A stretch of DNA of 64,000 bases, taken from the NCBI GenBank assembly GCA_943330915.2, contig CALQJO020000003.1:1-64000 (forward strand), in the 5' to 3' direction. Under the pieces are notes generated by a model, which saw nothing but the letters and a program-made list of their open reading frames with translations, did no database searches and was not told the origin of the DNA. Positions 1 through 10,645 of this stretch are shown here, in pieces. A program made the position numbers and the translations under genes. Every line of letters begins with the position of its first letter. Position 1 is the stretch's first letter. This DNA is from Rhodoferax sp. OV413 (GTDB lineage Bacteria; Pseudomonadota; Gammaproteobacteria; Pseudomonadales; Pseudohongiellaceae).

Positions 1-1333
1 GCCTTAACCAGCGGTCAGCATCGTTGGCCAACAAGGGACTGTAGCCGTCACTGTCTTGCATTTGGGTATGGTTAAGTTGTGCGGTGACCGCGCCACTGAG
101 CACAGGCAACTGCCAATCCAGATTAAACTGCCAGCCATAGCGGCTGTCGCCCGGACGCCCGTCTTTGATCGGATCGTTATTGAGTACGCTGAGTTCCGGG
201 ACCAGTTGCTGACTATTTTCTCCGAGCTGTAGCTGGCAGTTCAGTCCGATACTGAATTTCGATTCGATAGCGTTCAGACGACTCTGGTTGTGAAACAACT
301 GGTGTTGCGCAGCCAAGCTGCTGAAAGGTTTACAACTACCGTACGCGTGTATGCTGACAGTACCGGGGTAAACATAGCGCCCTCCGGCCTCGGTGGCGGT
401 GTATAGCGGGCTGCCTCCGAAGAACAGATGGCTCATACCAGTATTGAGCTGCCAACTCCTGTCCTGCTCCGGTTTGATATACGCGTAGCGGGTATCCAGC
501 TGCAACAGATCTGAATCCTGGTCTTTACTGACGCGGCCACGTAAATCAACAGACACATTGTGCTGATGCTCAGGGGCAAGCTGGCGGTAACGAGCGCTGA
601 GACGTAGATTTGCGTAAGCGCCTTCTATTGGCTGGTATTGTTCACGCAAGGGCAGCACCACGGAGTCGCCAGACAAGGTCAGCGTGATCTGATCCGGGGA
701 GGGCGCACCATTCAGGTTGATGTCGTAACCGGCCATCAGGTCGCCGGTCACACTCATCTGCCGGGTCATGCCCTGCCAGTCATTCTGGCGCTGCTGCAGC
801 ATGGGGTTGAGATACTCAGGGACATCATCGCGCCCCAGAATTTGCTGATTCAACTCTAGTGCTGAAAATAGCTGACCCTGACGGAACAGCGCTTCGGCAT
901 AGTCAATCTGTGCACCACCATTGCCAGGATCGAGCAGCAGTGCTCTTTCCAATGCTTCCAGCGCATCTGACAGACTGCCTATGTTAAGCAGCGCTGCGCC
1001 CAGCAACGCAAAATACTCAGAACTTTGCAGGCATCGTTGCATCAGCGCCGACAGTTGTTGGTGCATCACTTGCCAGTTGGTGGCAGTGCCGGGGTAGAAG
1101 GAGGCAAGATCGGGACATGTCAGATTGTCTGACTGAAAAGTGGATAGCTCTTCAAGCGTCGTTGCTTGCTGCGTTTCCGTTGTTTGCGCCAGCACCAGCG
1201 GTGCAGGAGCTATCATTAGCAATCCCGGCAACAGCAAGGCAAGCCCACTGAATTGCATGCGCGGCATCAAGGCAAAGCGTCGCACCCGATTTCGCGAGCC
1301 TGACTTATTATCTTGGGGAGTGCGATTTACCAT
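1..1333 (-). CDS. TPR-containing outer-membrane beta-barrel protein, Slam/DUF560-like (3' end truncated by window edge; not in supplied ORF track)
   Basis: Manual reverse-strand translation from ATG at 1333 is open to the window edge: MVNRTPQDNKSGSRNRVRRFALMPRMQFSGLALLLPGLLMIAPAPLVLAQ (signal peptide), then TPR-like YFALLGAALLNIGSLSDALEALERALLLDPGNGGAQIDYAEALFRQGQLFSALELNQQIL, then alternating beta-strand region starting VTGDLMAGYDINLNGAP. Confidence 0.7.
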   Translation of the reverse strand, partial: MVNRTPQDNKSGSRNRVRRFALMPRMQFSGLALLLPGLLMIAPAPLVLAQTTETQQATTLEELSTFQSDNLTCPDLASFYPGTATNWQVMHQQLSALMQRCLQSSEYFALLGAALLNIGSLSDALEALERALLLDPGNGGAQIDYAEALFRQGQLFSALELNQQILGRDDVPEYLNPMLQQRQNDWQGMTRQMSVTGDLMAGYDINLNGAPSPDQITLTLSGDSVVLPLREQYQPIEGAYANLRLSARYRQLAPEHQHNVSVDLRGRVSKDQDSDLLQLDTRYAYIKPEQDRSWQLNTGMSHLFFGGSPLYTATEAGGRYVYPGTVSIHAYGSCKPFSSLAAQHQLFHNQSRLNAIESKFSIGLNCQLQLGENSQQLVPELSVLNNDPIKDGRPGDSRYGWQFNLDWQLPVLSGAVTAQLNHTQMQDSDGYSPLLANDADRWLR

Positions 1334-1480: not shown

Positions 1481-3475
1481 TTAACTGCGGCCACCTGAAA
1501 TGACCTTGAGATTCAACTGCTCCTGACGTGCGCGGCGCTGGGTGGTCTCGTCATTAGCAGGGGCGAACAAGGTGTGGGGAATGCGCAGTCCGTTTAACAG
1601 GAAGCTGCCCTGTGACTCTGGCTTGAGGTCGATTAACTGACGCGCCACACACTCGCCCAACAGAATCGGCTGTGACAATTCAGCGGTCATCTCCTGTATG
1701 CGCAAAGCGATGGTTACAGTGTCGCCCAACAATGTATGGGTACGGCGCTGTGCAGGTCCAATAGAACCCATCAGTGCCGGACCCTGCTCAATACCGATAC
1801 CCAGTGCCAATGGCTCAAGACCTGACGGTGGTTGCCGGGGCATATCGCGATGAATGGCGTCGAGCATCTCCTGCGCTGCGGCAAGTGAGGCGCGGGCACT
1901 GATCTCGTTCTGACCATCCCACACCGCGAGCAGGCCATCACCTTTAAACTCCTGTATGCGTCCGCCGTGGCGTTCGACGATATCTGTTGCACGCACAAAA
2001 AAGAAATGCAGCAGAGCAGCGGATTCTTCTGGCGGGCGAGCCTCACCAAAGGCAGAGAAATTGCGCAGATCTGCGCTAAGCAACGTGACATCACAGCGCC
2101 TGGCATTAATGCTGGAACTCGGCAGTGAGTAAGCTATCTCGCGAGCCACGTCACTGGGGAGGTAACTGTTGAGATTGCCAAAAATGCGGCTGCGCTCGGC
2201 GCGGATGCGGCTTTGCTCAAGGAGCAACAAGAGACTGGCTGCAACCAATGTATATAAAGAAGGCATTACCCAGCCTAACCACAACTGCTGGCTGACCAGC
2301 AACTGCCAATGCAACACTAACGCCAGAAGTGGCAGCAGTAAGCCCGCAACTGGCAATGCAAATGCCGAGAGTCGCTCACGGGCACCCGCCAAACCGTACA
2401 ACGCCGCTGCAAACAGCGCCGTCAGCAGCAACAACAATGTTTCACTGCCACGCGGTTCATAGGGCATGGTGGTATCCAGCAGGCTGCCGAGCAAACGCGC
2501 CTGCAACTCCACACCCGGCGCAGAGCCGTTGTAGGGTGTTGGCACAATGTCACCCATACCAAATGCCGTTGCGCCAACCAAAACCCAGGCGTTTTCCAAC
2601 AGACCAGGCTCAATGCGCCCCATCATCACGTCAACGGCAGAGACTGCCATAAAATTTTCGGGCAGATCCTGATAGGAAATACGGATGTTGCCTTCGTTGT
2701 CCAGCGGAATATCAAGTCCGGGGTAAGCCTGCAGACGCAGCACCTGGTCTGCACCGAACCAGCTGTCACCCTCCGTGACAGACGCCTGCCAGCTTGTTGA
2801 CTGTGTCGCCTGCAACAAGGCGCTGATCACCAGCGTTGGGTAGGCTTGGCCATCCACGCAGACAAATGCCGGGATTTTGCGGATAGAACCGTCGGAATCA
2901 ACCAATGGCGCAATGTGGCCTTTGGCAATTGTGGCAAACCCGCTGTGAGGGGCGATAAAACTGGTAGCAGAACTGCTGGCATCACAACTGACGCCCGTCA
3001 GTGCATGAGTCATCAACCCAGTTTGAACCTGTTGCGCTGACTGCAAAACCGGCACTTGGGCAATCACCGCCCCCCGGCTGGCCTGCAGCGCTGCAATAAA
3101 GGCGTCATCGCCTTCGCGAGGCTCCGGATAAACGATGTCATGGATCTGCAGCTGCACACCGGCAGTGTTCAGTGAGGTTACCAGTCGCGCCATGTCGTTG
3201 CGCGACCACGGCCATGGGCCGATCTCGGCCAGACTCTGCTCATCAATTGCGACGATGGTAACGCGCTCTTCCGGCACGTCTTCCGGAAACAATACCCAAC
3301 CCTGCGCGCCAAGGCGCTCTTCAACAATGGTCAGGCTGCCACCAAAAACACCCGTCAGCAACAAGGTAGTGACGCCGGCAAGCGCCAGCATCAGCAAGCG
3401 ACCACGTCCGGGCAACAGTCGCAAGGCCAGCGACAGGGGGTTAAACTGTTGAATGAGTTTACGCACAAGAATCAT
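1481..3475 (-). CDS. CHASE2 sensor domain - transmembrane helices - class III adenylate/guanylate cyclase domain protein
   Basis: 664 aa; N-terminal TM, extracytoplasmic CHASE2-like region (ERVTIVAIDEQSLAEIGPWPWSR), three hydrophobic helices, then cyclase motifs VTLLSADLRNFSAF, GGRIQEFKGDGLLAVW, TLLGDTVTIALR. Confidence 0.9.
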   Translation of the reverse strand: MILVRKLIQQFNPLSLALRLLPGRGRLLMLALAGVTTLLLTGVFGGSLTIVEERLGAQGWVLFPEDVPEERVTIVAIDEQSLAEIGPWPWSRNDMARLVTSLNTAGVQLQIHDIVYPEPREGDDAFIAALQASRGAVIAQVPVLQSAQQVQTGLMTHALTGVSCDASSSATSFIAPHSGFATIAKGHIAPLVDSDGSIRKIPAFVCVDGQAYPTLVISALLQATQSTSWQASVTEGDSWFGADQVLRLQAYPGLDIPLDNEGNIRISYQDLPENFMAVSAVDVMMGRIEPGLLENAWVLVGATAFGMGDIVPTPYNGSAPGVELQARLLGSLLDTTMPYEPRGSETLLLLLTALFAAALYGLAGARERLSAFALPVAGLLLPLLALVLHWQLLVSQQLWLGWVMPSLYTLVAASLLLLLEQSRIRAERSRIFGNLNSYLPSDVAREIAYSLPSSSINARRCDVTLLSADLRNFSAFGEARPPEESAALLHFFFVRATDIVERHGGRIQEFKGDGLLAVWDGQNEISARASLAAAQEMLDAIHRDMPRQPPSGLEPLALGIGIEQGPALMGSIGPAQRRTHTLLGDTVTIALRIQEMTAELSQPILLGECVARQLIDLKPESQGSFLLNGLRIPHTLFAPANDETTQRRARQEQLNLKVISGGRS

Positions 3476-3477
3476 GA

Positions 3478-5052
3478 TCAGCGCTTATCCCACAGAGTCA
3501 GACCCTGAATGCCGCCGGCTTCGAGCTGTTTCTCGAAGTAATAGCCCGCTTCCGCACCAGTCAGACTGACTGCCCCTGCCATGCGCTCGGTTTCAGATCG
3601 TGTGTAGAAGTAACCACCTTCATAGATAAAGCCGTTGGCGATAAAACTGACATCGCCGGTCAGCCTATGATTCATATTCAATTCGGTCGCAAAACTGCTG
3701 GTATTAAAATTGATATCCAGCGTTCCACCCTTAACAGTCATTGCCACCACTCCGGTCGCCGAGTGGTAGAACGCCTGTGCGCTGTGTAACGCAAAACTCA
3801 CCGGGCCCAAGCCTTCCTGAACACGGGTTTTACCATCGCCGTCGCGGAACAACACGTAATCATTGTTACCTACCGTCACATCACGGCCTTGCCTGGCATC
3901 GACATAAGGCATCGTTAGTTTTTCCAAATCACCCTGGCCGGCGCCCCAACGCCCCCAAACCAGATTGCGGTCTGTCAGCACAGGCACAGGCACTGGTGCC
4001 ACCGGTGTAAAATCAGGCGGCGTTACTGGAAGTACTACCGGCGGCGTAACCACCGGCGGGGTTACAATTGGTGGCGTAACAACGGGTGGCGTAACAACGG
4101 GTGGCGTAACAACGGGTGGCGTGACCGGCGCAGCAACGGCAACTTCCTGCTGGACACGCTTAGAAGTAACTGTCTCAAGGAAGACTTCGGTCGCCGCGGT
4201 TTTTTCGTCGGCCTGTGGCGGCTGTTCTTGCACTGCGAGCGCGAGCGCAACCTCGTCGCGCATCATGTCCGGATCGCGCTCCAGCGTTGCCGGCAGCAAT
4301 TCAGGCACGCCCCCGGCGCTTTGCATCTCCAGTACCTGAAGGGAACTGTCGCTAAGCTCTATGGCATTTGTCAGACAAGGGCCAAAGGTGTCCGCGCTGC
4401 ACTCGCTGGAGAAAGGCGCCATCACAATCACACCTTCATTCACAGCTGCTCGCACAGACTGCTGGCTGGCGCTCACCACAAAATCAGTCCCGCGCACACC
4501 AATCGCAGCGATCGGCGTATTCAGACGGAAACGTTCTCGAGCCGAACTGGCGCCTCTACCGGAAATTGAGCGGGTAACGCCTTCTTTTAGATCAAGCTTG
4601 ATTGAGGTGTCGCCTGGCTGATCCGCCAGAAAATCATACTGGACAATATCCAGAATACTATCGGGACGCACGCTCACCAGAGCCTGGTCGATAAAACGTA
4701 TATGAACATGGCCGTTGGACTCAGTCTGAATCCGATCGGTGGCATGCACCAAAGTACCTGGAGCTATCATGGTCCTTTGCTGCCCAGCACTCTCAATCCA
4801 GGCTCTGCCCAGTACCAAGCTGACTTCACCAACTGGCGGAAGAAACTCAGCAGAGACAGAAACCGCGAGACTGCCGGCATCAGCGACCCCAGACTGGGCA
4901 ATTGCTGCAGTGGTGAGTGAACCCGACAAAATCAGGGCAACGCAGCATGTCAGCATCTGGCGCTTTTGCCCTGCTGTCAAAATAGTGTTGTCTGGATGTG
5001 GCGTCATGAGCACTAACCTCGATTTAGCACAGGCCCGTATCGTAACCGGCAT
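3478..5052 (-). CDS. FecR domain-containing secreted protein with VTPP-repeat linker and C-terminal beta-rich domain
   Basis: 524 aa; signal-peptide-like N-terminus (MLTCCVALILSGSLTTAAIAQ), FecR-like core (RFRLNTPIAAIGVRGTDFVV), VTPPV repeats, C-terminal WGRW...AEAGYYFEKQL region. Stop lies 2 bp from the cyclase start. True start may be an internal Met. Confidence 0.85.
   Translation of the reverse strand: MPVTIRACAKSRLVLMTPHPDNTILTAGQKRQMLTCCVALILSGSLTTAAIAQSGVADAGSLAVSVSAEFLPPVGEVSLVLGRAWIESAGQQRTMIAPGTLVHATDRIQTESNGHVHIRFIDQALVSVRPDSILDIVQYDFLADQPGDTSIKLDLKEGVTRSISGRGASSARERFRLNTPIAAIGVRGTDFVVSASQQSVRAAVNEGVIVMAPFSSECSADTFGPCLTNAIELSDSSLQVLEMQSAGGVPELLPATLERDPDMMRDEVALALAVQEQPPQADEKTAATEVFLETVTSKRVQQEVAVAAPVTPPVVTPPVVTPPVVTPPIVTPPVVTPPVVLPVTPPDFTPVAPVPVPVLTDRNLVWGRWGAGQGDLEKLTMPYVDARQGRDVTVGNNDYVLFRDGDGKTRVQEGLGPVSFALHSAQAFYHSATGVVAMTVKGGTLDINFNTSSFATELNMNHRLTGDVSFIANGFIYEGGYFYTRSETERMAGAVSLTGAEAGYYFEKQLEAGGIQGLTLWDKR
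4040..4129. repeat. 15-bp tandem repeat (6 units; three identical ggtggcgtaacaacg) inside the FecR-domain gene, encoding VTPPV
   Basis: Direct reading of six consecutive 15-mers from 4040 to 4129. Confidence 0.9.
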
Positions 5053-5065
5053 ACCCGTTTAGCTG

Positions 5066-5081
5066 AGTGACTACAATCACA
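5066..5081. promoter_or_regulatory. CRP/FNR-family operator, near-perfect (AGTGA-N6-TCACA)
   Basis: agtgactacaatcaca in the divergent intergenic region between FecR operon and crp-like gene; one mismatch to TGTGA-N6-TCACA. A TATAAT at 5139-5144 precedes the crp-like gene. Confidence 0.6.
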
Positions 5082-5207
5082 TAGTAGCGCTGTTTGCCAC
5101 AGCCCTTCGCGTGAATTTGCTATTCCGGGCGCGATTACTATAATGACCCGGCCCGGCATTTTACAAAATCAGCCGTTTTTGAGGTCAAACTCAGGAAAAA
5201 CACATTC

Positions 5208-5909
5208 ATGCAGGTAACTCCTGAGCTTCTCAGTGCATTTCCCAGCCTGAAGCCTCTGCCACCAGCGACCCTTGCACGCCTCGCCCAAGAGTCTGAGGTT
5301 CGCAAGTTCGCGCGCCGGGGCGTGGTCATGACAGCCGGTGTCCGAGAGGAATTTGTGTGTTTTCTGTTTGAGGGCCGCCTGCAGGGCGTCGATTTCACAA
5401 TCGATGGTCGCGAAGTTGGTCTTTATTTCGTGGAGCCCGGCGACTTTTGCGGAGAGCTGGGGATGTTTGACCACGGCCCGCAGCCGGAATTTGTCATCGC
5501 CCTGACCGCCGCCGTGACTGTGTTTGTGCCGATGGAGAGCCTGCGACTGGTCACTATGGAAAATCCCGTGCTTCTTAAACTGCTGGGACAGAGGCTGGCA
5601 GCTCGCGTCCGGCAGTTAACCCGCCAACGTTCTTTGCTCGGACTACCCAACATCAGCCAGCGCGTGTGCTGTCAGTTGTGGCTGCTTGTATCAGACGATG
5701 CCAGACAGCATCTGCAGTCCAGCGTGATTAACAATCCACCTACGCACATGGAAATTGCCATCATGCTGAACCTTAGCCGTGAGACTGTCAGCCGCGTTTT
5801 TCAGATCCTGCAGACCCGCAATATTGTCCGTCGCGACGGCACCAGCCTGCTGCACGTTAGCGATTCTGCAGCGCTGAAGCGATTGGCTGACGGCTCTGAA
5901 GAGCTGTGA
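5208..5909 (+). CDS. Crp/Fnr family transcriptional regulator
   Basis: 233 aa; cyclic-nucleotide-binding fold (GDFCGELGMFDHG) and HTH THMEIAIMLNLSRETVSRVFQIL (RETVxR recognition helix as in CRP). Confidence 0.9.
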   Translation: MQVTPELLSAFPSLKPLPPATLARLAQESEVRKFARRGVVMTAGVREEFVCFLFEGRLQGVDFTIDGREVGLYFVEPGDFCGELGMFDHGPQPEFVIALTAAVTVFVPMESLRLVTMENPVLLKLLGQRLAARVRQLTRQRSLLGLPNISQRVCCQLWLLVSDDARQHLQSSVINNPPTHMEIAIMLNLSRETVSRVFQILQTRNIVRRDGTSLLHVSDSAALKRLADGSEEL

Positions 5910-5920
5910 CTGCGGTCACA
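5905..5920. promoter_or_regulatory. Perfect CRP-type operator TGTGA-CTGCGG-TCACA upstream of the T1SS operon
   Basis: tgtgactgcggtcaca at 5905-5920 overlapping the stop codon of the crp-like gene; TATAAT at 5972-5977. Confidence 0.75.
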
Positions 5921-6076
5921 CACATTGCGGTAAGCAATTATGCTCATTAGTCTTTTTCCAATATGCAGGTATATAATCACGCCATTCTTGAAGCCAGACT
6001 TGAATACGCAAGTGTTGATCACAACAATAGGGTTTTGTTGAAAGTCTGAAAAAGTACCACTGACGAAGATTATCTG

Positions 6077-7786
6077 ATGAACAATACCAAGAAGACCGGG
6101 GGTTTCCCCGAACTCGCCGACGCACTTAAATCAATACGCAGTTATTTTATGTACGCCGGATTATTCAGTGCAGCGGTGAACCTGCTGATGCTGGTGCCGA
6201 TATTTTACATGCTGCAAGTTTACGACCGGGTGATGACAAGCGGCAGCTTGCCAACGCTGACCATGCTGACGCTGCTGATGTTGTTTCTGACCCTGGCGAT
6301 GGGCGGGTTTGAATGGGTGCGATCCATGATTTTGATCAGTGCCAGTAACCGCATTGAACACAAATTGCGCACACGGGTTTTTGACGCTGCGTTTAAAAAT
6401 GCGCTTTACACCGGCAATACCGGCAGCAGTAATCAGGCCATGTCTGATCTATCTAATTTGCGGCAGTTTTTGACCGGCAACGGCATATTTGCGTTTTTTG
6501 ATGCTCCATGGTTCCCAATTTATGTAGCCGTGATGTTCATGTTTCACCCCTGGTTCGGCATTGTGGCAATTGTTGCCGGCATAGTGATGGTAACGTTCGC
6601 GTTTGCCACAGAAATGGTCACGACCAAAAAGTTAAAGGATGCCAATACCAAGGCAAGCCGCGTTGGCGCACAGATAAATGGCAGTTTGCGTAACGCCGAA
6701 GTAATTGCCGCTATGGGCATGGGTAACAATATTCGCAACCAACAGGAGAGGCAGTCTGATGAAGTGTTGGTTCTGCAAACCGAGGCCAGCCAGTCAGCTG
6801 CCGGGCTGACCAGTCTTTCCAAAACCTTCCGTATGGCAGTGCAATCCCTCATTCTTGGCTTGGGTGCATTACTTGCCCTTCAGCAACAAATTTCCCCTGG
6901 CATGGTGATTGCCGGCTCTATGCTGCTGGGACGCGCACTGGCGCCAATCGATATTCTGGTTGGCACCTGGAAGGGCTTTTCTGTCGCCAGGGCCCAGTAT
7001 GAGCGCCTGGGTCAACTGCTGGAGAATATTCAGGCCGAGAAAGACACCATGACCCTGCCGGCGCCCAAGGGAAATCTAAGTCTGTCGCAAGTGGCGATTG
7101 TCCCGCCCGGGTCACGGACACCCGTTGTGCAAGGCGTCAACATTGAACTGTCAGCAGGTGAAGCTTTGGGTATTGTCGGCCCAAGCGCCTCAGGCAAATC
7201 GACGCTTGCGCGCGCTATCCTGGGTATCTGGCCGGCGGCCAATGGCAAGGTGAGGCTGGACGGCGCCGACATCAGCACTTGGAAGCGCACGGAGCTGGGG
7301 CCCTATGTGGGATACCTGCCACAAGATATTGAACTGTTTGACGGCAGCATCTCGGAAAATATCTGTCGCTTTGGGCCAATTGACTCTCAAGCAATTGTCG
7401 CGGCTGCTCAAATGGCCGGTGTGCATGAGATGATTTTACGTCTGCCACAGGGTTACGACACAGTAATCGGCAGCAACTCCGGCGCGCTGTCTGGCGGTCA
7501 ACGCCAGCGTATTGGTCTGGCACGGGCTATTTACGGCATGCCAACATTATTGGTCTTGGATGAACCAAATTCTAATCTAGATGACCAGGGCGAGCGTGAA
7601 CTGGTTCAGGCACTGCTGCGCATCAAGGCACAGGGTTGCACAGTCATTGTAATCTCGCACCGCACCATGGTCCTGCACAGCATGGACAAGTTGCTGGTGA
7701 TGAAAGATGGCTCGCCAGTTGCTTTTGGGCCGCGCGAACAGGTGCTTGCGAGTCTGATGGCCCAAGGCGAAGCTAAACGCGCGTAG
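6077..7786 (+). CDS. Type I secretion system permease/ATPase (PrtD family ABC transporter)
   Basis: 569 aa; N-terminal TM region, Walker A GPSASGKST, signature LSGGQRQR, Walker B LLVLDEP; no C39 peptidase domain. Confidence 0.92.
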   Translation: MNNTKKTGGFPELADALKSIRSYFMYAGLFSAAVNLLMLVPIFYMLQVYDRVMTSGSLPTLTMLTLLMLFLTLAMGGFEWVRSMILISASNRIEHKLRTRVFDAAFKNALYTGNTGSSNQAMSDLSNLRQFLTGNGIFAFFDAPWFPIYVAVMFMFHPWFGIVAIVAGIVMVTFAFATEMVTTKKLKDANTKASRVGAQINGSLRNAEVIAAMGMGNNIRNQQERQSDEVLVLQTEASQSAAGLTSLSKTFRMAVQSLILGLGALLALQQQISPGMVIAGSMLLGRALAPIDILVGTWKGFSVARAQYERLGQLLENIQAEKDTMTLPAPKGNLSLSQVAIVPPGSRTPVVQGVNIELSAGEALGIVGPSASGKSTLARAILGIWPAANGKVRLDGADISTWKRTELGPYVGYLPQDIELFDGSISENICRFGPIDSQAIVAAAQMAGVHEMILRLPQGYDTVIGSNSGALSGGQRQRIGLARAIYGMPTLLVLDEPNSNLDDQGERELVQALLRIKAQGCTVIVISHRTMVLHSMDKLLVMKDGSPVAFGPREQVLASLMAQGEAKRA

Positions 7787-7847: not shown

Positions 7848-9215
7848 TTGACAGTGGCACGGATAATCGAACATTCAAATAAACTAGCCGGCGAACAGGC
7901 AAGCGTCGTTGCCAGCGACAAAGCATCCGGTAGTGCGGTGATCACCTCCATGAACAAGCCCAAAAATATCGGACTGATGATGTTTTTTCTGGTGTTTGGC
8001 GTGTTTGGTATCTGGGCATCCGTCGCGCCGATTGAGGGTGCTGCGCATGCACCTGGCTCAGTGACGGTACGCTCTAACCGCCAGCTTGTTCAGCATCTGG
8101 AAGGCGGTATTGTTAAAGAAATAGTTGCCCGCAATGGTGATCAGGTGCGGGCCGGCGATGCGTTGCTGATCCTTGATGACACTCAACCCCTTGCGCAACT
8201 GGAAATTACCAACCTGCAATACCTGGCGATGCGTGCCATGGAGGCAAGATTGATTGCTGAGCGCGACGGCCTTGAGCAAATTAACTTCCCTGCAGACTTG
8301 TCAACGCTTGCTCAGAACGCTGAGTCGGAAATTTCATCACAAACTCAAGTTTTTTTGACCCGCAAAGCGGCACTGGATGGCAGTGTTGAAGTGCTGGAGC
8401 AGCGCATAGGTCAGTTGCAATCCCGTTTGGGCGGTCTGCGCGCATTGCAGCAAAGCAAACAGGATCTTGCAGACTCATTTGCAGAGGAATTGCGCGATGT
8501 GCAGTCGTTGTTAGTTGAAGGTTTTGCCGATAAAAACCGAGTACGTGAACTGGAGCGCAATGCCGCGCAGTTGCGTGGCGAAGCAGCTGAATTGACCGCC
8601 AATATTTCATCCACCGAAATTGAAATTGGCGAGACGCGTTTGCAGATTCTGCAACAAGAGCATGAGTTTCAGAACGGGGTTGCCAATGAACTGGCTGAAG
8701 TGCAAACCGGACTTAAAGATGCGAATGAGCGGTTAACCGCCTTGCGATCCATTGTGCAGCGCACCACTATCACCGCTCCAGTGGACGGCATAGTCAACGG
8801 CATGCAGGTTCATACGGTGGGTGGTGTGGTGCCGCCAGGTCAGCCGCTGGCTGACATCGTGCCGCAAAACGAGGAGCTTATTGTCGAGGCGCGCATTTCG
8901 CCTATGGACATTGATCGCGTCGCGATCGGCCAGGTAGCAATGGTGCGTTTTTCAAGTTTCTCCAGTTCGGTACCCAACATATTCGGAAATGTCATTAACG
9001 TGTCGGCCGATGCACTGGCAGATCCAAACACTGGCATGGCCTATTACAGTGCGCGCGTGGAGGTCACCCCGGAAGGATTGAGAGACCTCGGCAGTCTGAC
9101 ACTGATACCTGGAATGCCGGCAGATGTATTTATTTCTACCGGTTCGCGCACATTGGTTCAGTACCTGATGAAACCCTTAACAAGTGCGATGGCGCGCAGC
9201 TTTATAGAAGATTGA
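7848..9215 (+). CDS. HlyD family type I secretion periplasmic adaptor subunit
   Basis: 455 aa; single N-terminal TM, GSVTVRSNRQLVQHLEGGIVKEI lipoyl-like motif, coiled coil, TTITAPVDGIVNGMQVHTVGGVV. Start probably GTG 7854 or TTG 7848. Confidence 0.92.
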   Translation: MTVARIIEHSNKLAGEQASVVASDKASGSAVITSMNKPKNIGLMMFFLVFGVFGIWASVAPIEGAAHAPGSVTVRSNRQLVQHLEGGIVKEIVARNGDQVRAGDALLILDDTQPLAQLEITNLQYLAMRAMEARLIAERDGLEQINFPADLSTLAQNAESEISSQTQVFLTRKAALDGSVEVLEQRIGQLQSRLGGLRALQQSKQDLADSFAEELRDVQSLLVEGFADKNRVRELERNAAQLRGEAAELTANISSTEIEIGETRLQILQQEHEFQNGVANELAEVQTGLKDANERLTALRSIVQRTTITAPVDGIVNGMQVHTVGGVVPPGQPLADIVPQNEELIVEARISPMDIDRVAIGQVAMVRFSSFSSSVPNIFGNVINVSADALADPNTGMAYYSARVEVTPEGLRDLGSLTLIPGMPADVFISTGSRTLVQYLMKPLTSAMARSFIED

Positions 9216-10645
9216 TGACTATGACACGCGTGTCCCCATTCGCTTTAAACACACCCTGTGCCGGTTGGTATCTCCGCACACTGGGCAGCGCCAGCCTGTT
9301 GTTAATTGCGGCACTTGGCGCTTATTCGCCAATGCCGGCGTTGTCACAGACAGTTGAATCGCAAAACGAAAGCAGCAGCGCACTGGAAACAGGCATCGGT
9401 CAGACATTGGAAGATTTTTTTACCGCAGCATTGGAATACAGCCCACGACTGCAGGTTGCCCAAGCCAAACGTGACATCGGTGCTGCGCGTCGGCGCGGAG
9501 CCAATGGCCAACTGCTGCCACAAATCAGCGCCAGCGCCAGCTTGTCTGAAAATCGGCAGGATGCCCTGAATCGTGTCAGCGAATACAGCGGTGAACGCCT
9601 TGCTCTGGTGCTGCGCCAGGTGCTGTTTGACTGGCGTATTTTTTCACAGCGTGGCCAGGCTTACGCGATGGAAAACCAGATGGAAGCGGAATACTTCGCT
9701 GAACTATCGGTAGTATTGACCAGCGTAGCCGAGCGCTACTTTGATGTCTTGCAGGCAGAAGACGCTTTGCGATCAATTCAGTCTGAGCGCGAGTCTGTCG
9801 CAAATCAGGTTAATCAGGTCGAACGCCTGTACGGCCTGCAGATGGCGCAGATCACTGATTTGTATGATGCGCAGGCGCGATTGTCTGCTGTTGAGGCTGA
9901 AGAATTATTGTTGTCCAGCGACGTCACGCTGACCCGCGACGCCTTGCGTTCGGTTAGCGGTATCGGTGTCGGCAACCTGTATGTGCTGGGGGAGAATACG
10001 GATCTGCCGGATGTTGATGGCACTGCAGAGGAATGGGTGCAGCGGGCCAGACAGGGTAATCATCAAATTCGTGCACGCGAGTACTCAGTCGAAATCGCAG
10101 ACCGTCGGGTATCTGAGCAACGTGGCGCTTATATGCCCCGCGTCAATCTTATTGTCCAGCAACAACGCTCCGACCTGGGTTTTGACAATATCCCTATCAA
10201 CCGCACGGATACCGGCTATATTGGTCTGGATATTTCGATGCCGCTATTTGCCGGTGGCTCGATCCGCGCCGGTGTTAGTGAAGCCATCAGCCAGCAATCA
10301 ATTGCCCGCAGTGAGCTGCGACAGCTGAATCTGGATGTCAGCGAGCAAACAAGGCTGTCGTTTCTGCGGCTTAAAGCAGCTGAACGCCAGATAGAAGCGT
10401 CCGAAAAACTACTGGAATCACGCACCCTGGCAACCACCGCAAGACGCCGGGGGTTTGAATTGGGCACGGTCACCAGTGTGAATGTGCTTGACGCGGTGCG
10501 TGAACAGTTTGTGGCCGAGCGCGATCTGCAGCGTATCCGTTACGACTATATCCGCCTTAGCCTGTACCTGCGGCGGGACGCCGGGGTGCTCAGCTCTGAT
10601 GATCTGGTGGATATCGGCAGCCGGCTTGATCAACCGCTGCGGTAA
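9212..10645 (+). CDS. TolC family outer membrane protein (T1SS outer membrane component)
   Basis: 477 aa; signal peptide, OEP repeats, downstream of and overlapping the hlyD-like gene. Start likely ATG 9215 or ATG 9221. Confidence 0.9.
   Translation: MMTMTRVSPFALNTPCAGWYLRTLGSASLLLIAALGAYSPMPALSQTVESQNESSSALETGIGQTLEDFFTAALEYSPRLQVAQAKRDIGAARRRGANGQLLPQISASASLSENRQDALNRVSEYSGERLALVLRQVLFDWRIFSQRGQAYAMENQMEAEYFAELSVVLTSVAERYFDVLQAEDALRSIQSERESVANQVNQVERLYGLQMAQITDLYDAQARLSAVEAEELLLSSDVTLTRDALRSVSGIGVGNLYVLGENTDLPDVDGTAEEWVQRARQGNHQIRAREYSVEIADRRVSEQRGAYMPRVNLIVQQQRSDLGFDNIPINRTDTGYIGLDISMPLFAGGSIRAGVSEAISQQSIARSELRQLNLDVSEQTRLSFLRLKAAERQIEASEKLLESRTLATTARRRGFELGTVTSVNVLDAVREQFVAERDLQRIRYDYIRLSLYLRRDAGVLSSDDLVDIGSRLDQPLR

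Follow-up and report, generated by a model that had tools for sequence, protein, structure and literature searches.

The window, the whole 64-kb stretch of DNA analysed here, begins with a gene cluster arranged TPR-cyclase-fecR on one strand and crpL-prtD-hlyD-tolC on the other, a gene order that is found in about 65 Pseudohongiellaceae loci. Its features are as follows.

1 to 1333, minus strand: third gene of the fecR operon, encoding a TPR protein and truncated at the contig end (in relatives, the RTX gene lies beyond it)
1481 to 3475, minus strand: protein with CHASE2 and class III nucleotide cyclase domains
3478 to 5007, minus strand: fecR-domain gene, which probably starts at an internal ATG (5007) and not at 5052
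5039 to 5044, minus strand: TACGAT, the fecR operon's predicted -10 box, which follows the 16-bp site after 21 bases
5066 to 5081, minus strand: conserved putative operator for fecR-cyclase-TPR, AGTGACTACAATCACA (minus strand TGTGATTGTAGTCACT), seen at 66 of 67 loci
5208 to 5909, plus strand: crpL, CRP/FNR-family regulator (cNMP_binding and HTH_Crp_2), with R180/E181/R185 kept and R82 lost
5905 to 5920, no strand assigned: CRP-type palindrome TGTGAC-TGCG-GTCACA, putative operator of the type I secretion (T1SS) operon, at the crpL stop codon
5972 to 5977, plus strand: TATAAT, predicted -10 box of the T1SS operon; relatives that lack the operator have it too
6077 to 7786, plus strand: prtD-type T1SS ABC transporter (TIGR01842, 733 bits)
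7848 to 9215, plus strand: hlyD-type T1SS adaptor (TIGR01843)
9212 to 10645, plus strand: tolC-type outer membrane protein, by profile matches

CrpL belongs to the CRP/FNR family, matching both PF00027 (42.5 bits) and PF13545 (45.2 bits) above cut-off. The PrtD-, HlyD- and TolC-type proteins encoded together constitute a T1SS exporter; TIGR01842 and TIGR01843 are above cut-off, and the TolC-type protein falls below the cut-off of its own profile (193.9 vs 225) with a strong OEP match. The genes for the regulator and the cyclase are co-inherited: of 137 genomes in the family, 80 carry the pair, 8 and 2 carry one gene without the other (mostly fragmented assemblies), and the remaining 47 carry neither.

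The initial annotation had drawn attention to a perfect TGTGA-N6-TCACA palindrome over the stop codon of the crp-like gene, and the match is indeed exact. The palindrome, TGTGACTGCGGTCACA (= tgtgaCTGCGGtcaca), overlaps the end of the crpL reading frame (5208-5909), whose last codons are CTG TGA; the Leu-CTG and the TGA stop thus supply part of its left half. It is the only exact TGTGAN6TCACA match in the window, where base composition predicts 0.056 (~0.06) per 64 kb, and the 2.89-Mb genome contains three perfect matches against 2.76 expected. Because such matches are about as frequent as chance predicts, the palindrome considered without its context is not significant. The same genome-wide count (3 vs 2.8 expected) rules out reading a large regulon from perfect sites. 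For the extended motif TGTGAYN4RTCACA in the roughly 184 bp before prtD, the expectation is about 4e-5, for a location that was picked post hoc. The other two perfect sites in the genome (L032 1501-1516 and L033 1501-1516) both contain TTCACACTTTT within T-rich flanks, and one of them precedes a gene resembling rpoS; they possibly represent a different motif.

The TATAAT reported at 5972-5977, upstream of the prtD start at 6077, is likewise present. Measured start to start, it lies 67 bases from the palindrome, a distance that is identical in all six genomes in which the palindrome is perfect. If transcription starts at 5984, assuming seven bases after the TATAAT, the palindrome is centred at -71.5. 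In a promoter scan of the window, the 5972 box was not among the two-hexamer sigma-70 promoters, as it has no good -35 hexamer. We consider -71.5 a sensible prediction for this promoter, since the motif recurs at the two other promoters of the cluster and the spacing to the TATAAT is constant. In E. coli, activation was about 100-fold with a CRP site at -71.5 and almost nil with one at -76.5 (PMC6301791). Class I activation of the T1SS promoter from this site is plausible; the motif and the fixed spacing fit the class I reading first given to it, which is weakened by a neighbouring CRP-like protein with no R82 equivalent and without the AR1 of CRP.

A better-conserved copy of the motif, not noted in the initial annotation, lies on the other side of crpL. 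Between fecR and crpL, 66 of 67 Pseudohongiellaceae loci carry a TGTGAN6TCACA site that departs from this pattern at one position at most, represented in the window by 5066-5081, with one mismatch. Its consensus is VGTGAYN4RTCACA, and in an alignment of 55 sequences that remained after removal of near-duplicates, nine core bases do not vary at all, position 6 admits only C or T, and position 11 only A or G (GTGAY-N4-RTCACA). A TAnnnT lies on the fecR strand at one fixed distance from this site, with the T, A and T each conserved in 96% of the 55 loci, and the exact arrangement of operator and TAnnnT has a single match in the window's genome. Relative to the predicted fecR transcription start, the site is centred at -41.5, which is class II geometry. 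That predicted start (~5032) would fall inside the longer reading frame from 5052, making ATG 5007 the likelier fecR start; a GAGG stands a few bases ahead of this ATG. On the crpL side, the distance varies among loci (the site lies at about -45.5 in L013/L078), indicating that the site is tied to fecR rather than to crpL. In the window, 5066-5081 was rejected as an auto-activation site for crpL, since the distance to the crpL TATAAT (5139-5144) places it at about -77.5, a poor position given that -76.5 is nearly inactive in E. coli (PMC6301791).

A third promoter with the motif is found beyond the TPR gene. There, relatives encode a large protein of 836-1555 aa in the loci read, and RTX calcium-binding repeats scored above cut-off in two of the three proteins tested. 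This is probably a large, secreted RTX-type calcium-binding protein, and we infer that it is the likely cargo of the T1SS. A perfect TGTGAYN4RTCACA precedes the RTX-type gene at 40 sites found in relatives, with 21 bases to a TAnnnT in 31 and 22 bases in another six (37 of 40 together). With the transcription start inferred from this -10 box, the site is centred at about -41.5, again as in class II promoters. No such site was present in the sequence examined at, for example, L055, L093, L095 and L099, and at L056 it lies just outside the flank examined. The window's own genome contains an RTX-like protein only as a fragment, on another contig, with the RTX promoter unassembled, and the RTX operator in this organism is consequently deduced from its close relatives.

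Two further observations concern the RTX region. The outer base of the polymerase-proximal half-site is A in 40 of 40 RTX promoters (e.g., L053, L069) and in only 2 of 55 fecR promoters, both types having the site at -41.5, a contrast that looks like tuned operator strength. Downstream of the RTX gene are genes for a MethyTransf_Reg methyltransferase and a SapC-family protein (L188 10610-12145, L189 4841-5656), whose presence suggests a surface-layer locus.

The cyclase itself departs from the usual pattern. Among its metal-binding Asp, transition-state and purine-selecting positions, as assigned by motif, D469, D513 and R592 are kept. By the same motif assignment, Glu509 occupies the position of the purine-selecting Lys in 52 of 52 orthologues, and the position of the transition-state Asn is Thr, Ser, Ala or Gly, with no Asn in any of the 52. 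Adenylyl cyclases usually carry the purine-selecting Lys. The product of the CHASE2 cyclase may not be cAMP.

Which regulator would bind these sites can be judged from the residues of the two candidates. CrpL retains the DNA-recognition residues R180, E181 and R185 in 66 of 66 aligned orthologues. Its cAMP contacts are absent in nearly all of 67 orthologues: Gln or a gap stands at the R82 position, mostly Pro at S83, and Met or Leu at T127. CrpL is therefore unlikely to bind cAMP in the manner of E. coli CRP, and does not have the Arg82/Ser83 and Thr127/Ser128 of cAMP-responsive CRPs. Nor are any CRP AR1 or AR2 residues recognisable in the aligned CrpL orthologues, which weakens the case for class I action by CrpL at -71.5. 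E. coli CRP uses AR1 in class I activation, and the AR1 loop (156-164, T158), not conserved in CrpL, is intact in the housekeeping Crp. Within CrpL, the stretch that aligns with CRP residues 52-58 hardly varies (F, T, I/V, D and E in 67 orthologues) and would fit an AR3-type class II contact.

With lower probability than CrpL, housekeeping cAMP-Crp may instead occupy all of these operators, 5905-5920 included; the cluster would then comprise ordinary Crp targets, with Crp activating the cyclase operon. A full Crp is encoded in the genome (L115 495-1184) and has the cAMP residues R82, S83 and T127, AR1 residues T158/H159/P160/G162 and recognition residues R180/E181/G184/R185, all as in E. coli CRP, and the standard Crp residues are present in 8 of 8 genomes checked. 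Further, the sites follow the consensus of E. coli CRP, for which centres at -41.5 and -71.5 are classic. Set against this is the distribution of the strict motif, which is in excess in crpL-bearing genomes of the genus (225 vs 110 for the control) and shows no excess in family members with Crp and without crpL (43 vs 63). The cluster itself accounts for much of the excess in genomes with crpL, and rough removal of it and of one recurring coding match weakens the contrast (p ~0.003, with genomes that are not independent). Near-invariant perfect sites limited to one gene cluster are also more typical of a dedicated regulator, and the cluster and crpL are gained and lost together. We treat the motif excess as moderate support for CrpL, which we consider a somewhat more likely binder than Crp. 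Recurring strict matches elsewhere in the genus were considered as operators and rejected, since those inspected lie in coding sequence, lie in inverted repeats resembling transcription ends, or are single cases. One such perfect TGTGAYN4RTCACA-like palindrome recurs inside the coding sequence for VTDVTK in L192-L195 and L200, as a by-product of coding.

The palindrome at 5905-5920 has a far narrower distribution than the other two sites. It is perfect in six genomes, those of the window and of L048, L049, L050, L051 and L052, which are the window's closest relatives only. It is missing from L053, whose CrpL is 85% identical, and from every more distant locus compared; in L090, an imperfect core, GTGATCAGGATCAC, stands at another place before prtD. 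The T1SS -10 box is kept in L053 although the palindrome is absent there, from which it follows that the palindrome is not needed for T1SS expression in general. As a putative CRP site for the T1SS operon, the palindrome is partly supported, by its extended motif and fixed spacing, yet it is a clade-specific extra to the family's main sites, 5066-5081 and the RTX promoter, which have class II (-41.5) geometry.

Such a distribution also allows for a by-product of coding, in which CTG-TGA supplies the TGTGA, the TCACA arose by chance, and the whole has been kept by common descent. Four loci (L054, L056, L070 and L072) have the TGTGA gene ending, and thus the left half, with the right half absent. 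Conservation points the same way: the five non-coding core bases are conserved in the six-genome clade, against 54% of neighbouring columns, but with a probability of about 0.03-0.05 in a weak test, this appears only weakly above neutral for such close genomes. Moreover, we estimate from motif length and the number of loci that about 0.02 such sites would be expected somewhere before prtD in the family. Nevertheless, the three versions of the palindrome, with spacers CTGCGG, CTGTGG and TTGAGG, differ only within the spacer and all obey Y6 and R11, the distance to the -10 box is constant, and the site shares its cluster with two strongly conserved copies of the motif. An accidental origin with no function is unlikely on this evidence. 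What argues most for function is that the palindrome matches the other operators of the cluster and lies where it does; conservation counts for less. An RNA hairpin at the crpL transcript end (an attenuator or 3′ end) is highly improbable: a 6-bp stem with a 4-base loop could form and its Y-R pairs stay pairable, but the hairpin is absent from the minimum-energy fold of all three versions, whose best folds differ, no T-run directly follows, no terminator was called there, and the same motif stands at or upstream of the -35 region at two other promoters, in DNA not expected in those RNAs.

The reading we prefer, with a probability of about 0.5, is that 5905-5920 is a working CRP-type operator, gained within the window's clade, that joins the T1SS operon to an older local regulon; CrpL would be its most likely binder, and Crp the second. 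The older regulon would consist of two family-wide class II operators at about -41.5, one of which (5066-5081) is predicted to drive fecR-cyclase-TPR and the other the gene for the large RTX-repeat protein, the likely T1SS cargo. From these positions, a regulator dimer would activate both transcription units across the family. In the window's clade, the third operator would add prtD-hlyD-tolC, with a dimer at about -71.5 helping RNA polymerase at a promoter that has a good -10 box and no -35. The dimer would most likely be CrpL, which is encoded beside the sites, with housekeeping cAMP-Crp as the second choice. Whichever protein binds it, 5905-5920 appears to be a real, probably functional, clade-specific CRP-type operator, and probably a recently gained one.

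The putative operators resemble those of E. coli class I and class II CRP promoters in their TGTGA-N6-TCACA core with Y6/R11 and in their centres at -41.5 (fecR, RTX) and about -71.5 (T1SS). CrpL shares the recognition residues R180, E181 and R185 with E. coli CRP, yet lacks an R82 equivalent and any recognisable AR1/AR2. The sites here, moreover, are confined to one cluster with predicted transcription starts, and do not form a global regulon. The nearest described arrangement is that of Sinorhizobium meliloti, in which the cAMP-dependent CRP-family regulator Clr lies beside the CHASE2 cyclase CyaD1 and the FecR gene SMc02177, which carries a Clr box (PMC5498481). Both systems thus place a CRP-family regulator gene beside a CHASE2 cyclase gene and a FecR-domain gene bearing the regulator's box. 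They differ in that Clr depends on cAMP and recognises the box HGTYHCNNNNGRWACW, in that no T1SS or RTX gene is described there, and in that the window's cyclase has Glu where canonical adenylyl cyclases have Lys.

Loci for S-layer and RTX proteins exported by T1SS offer a second comparison. In Methylomicrobium album (Metal_0877-0880), as in SapC-type loci, PrtD/HlyD/TolC genes lie near the gene for a large secreted protein (PMC13274458), and here a SapC-family gene lies near the RTX gene. In contrast, the RTX gene described here is near the exporter genes and not adjacent to them. That paper makes no mention of FecR, CHASE2 or Crp. Searches of the literature for CHASE2 with FecR and type I secretion, and for Pseudohongiella with S-layer, found no description.

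We speculate, tentatively, that CrpL is a CRP-family activator freed of cAMP control, whose dedicated, near-invariant, one-cluster regulon might link an inner-membrane CHASE2 cyclase with altered purine-site residues, FecR and a TPR protein to production and export of a large surface protein of the RTX type, the promoters differing in tuned operator strength. An ordinary-looking CRP-type operator points to a regulon that would tie a CHASE2 cyclase to type I secretion, a combination not described in the literature searched and conserved across a family of mostly uncultured bacteria. The system may also illustrate how the end of a coding sequence can give rise to an operator. With its few, near-perfect operators, it would offer a clear view of what controls a CRP relative that has no cAMP pocket.
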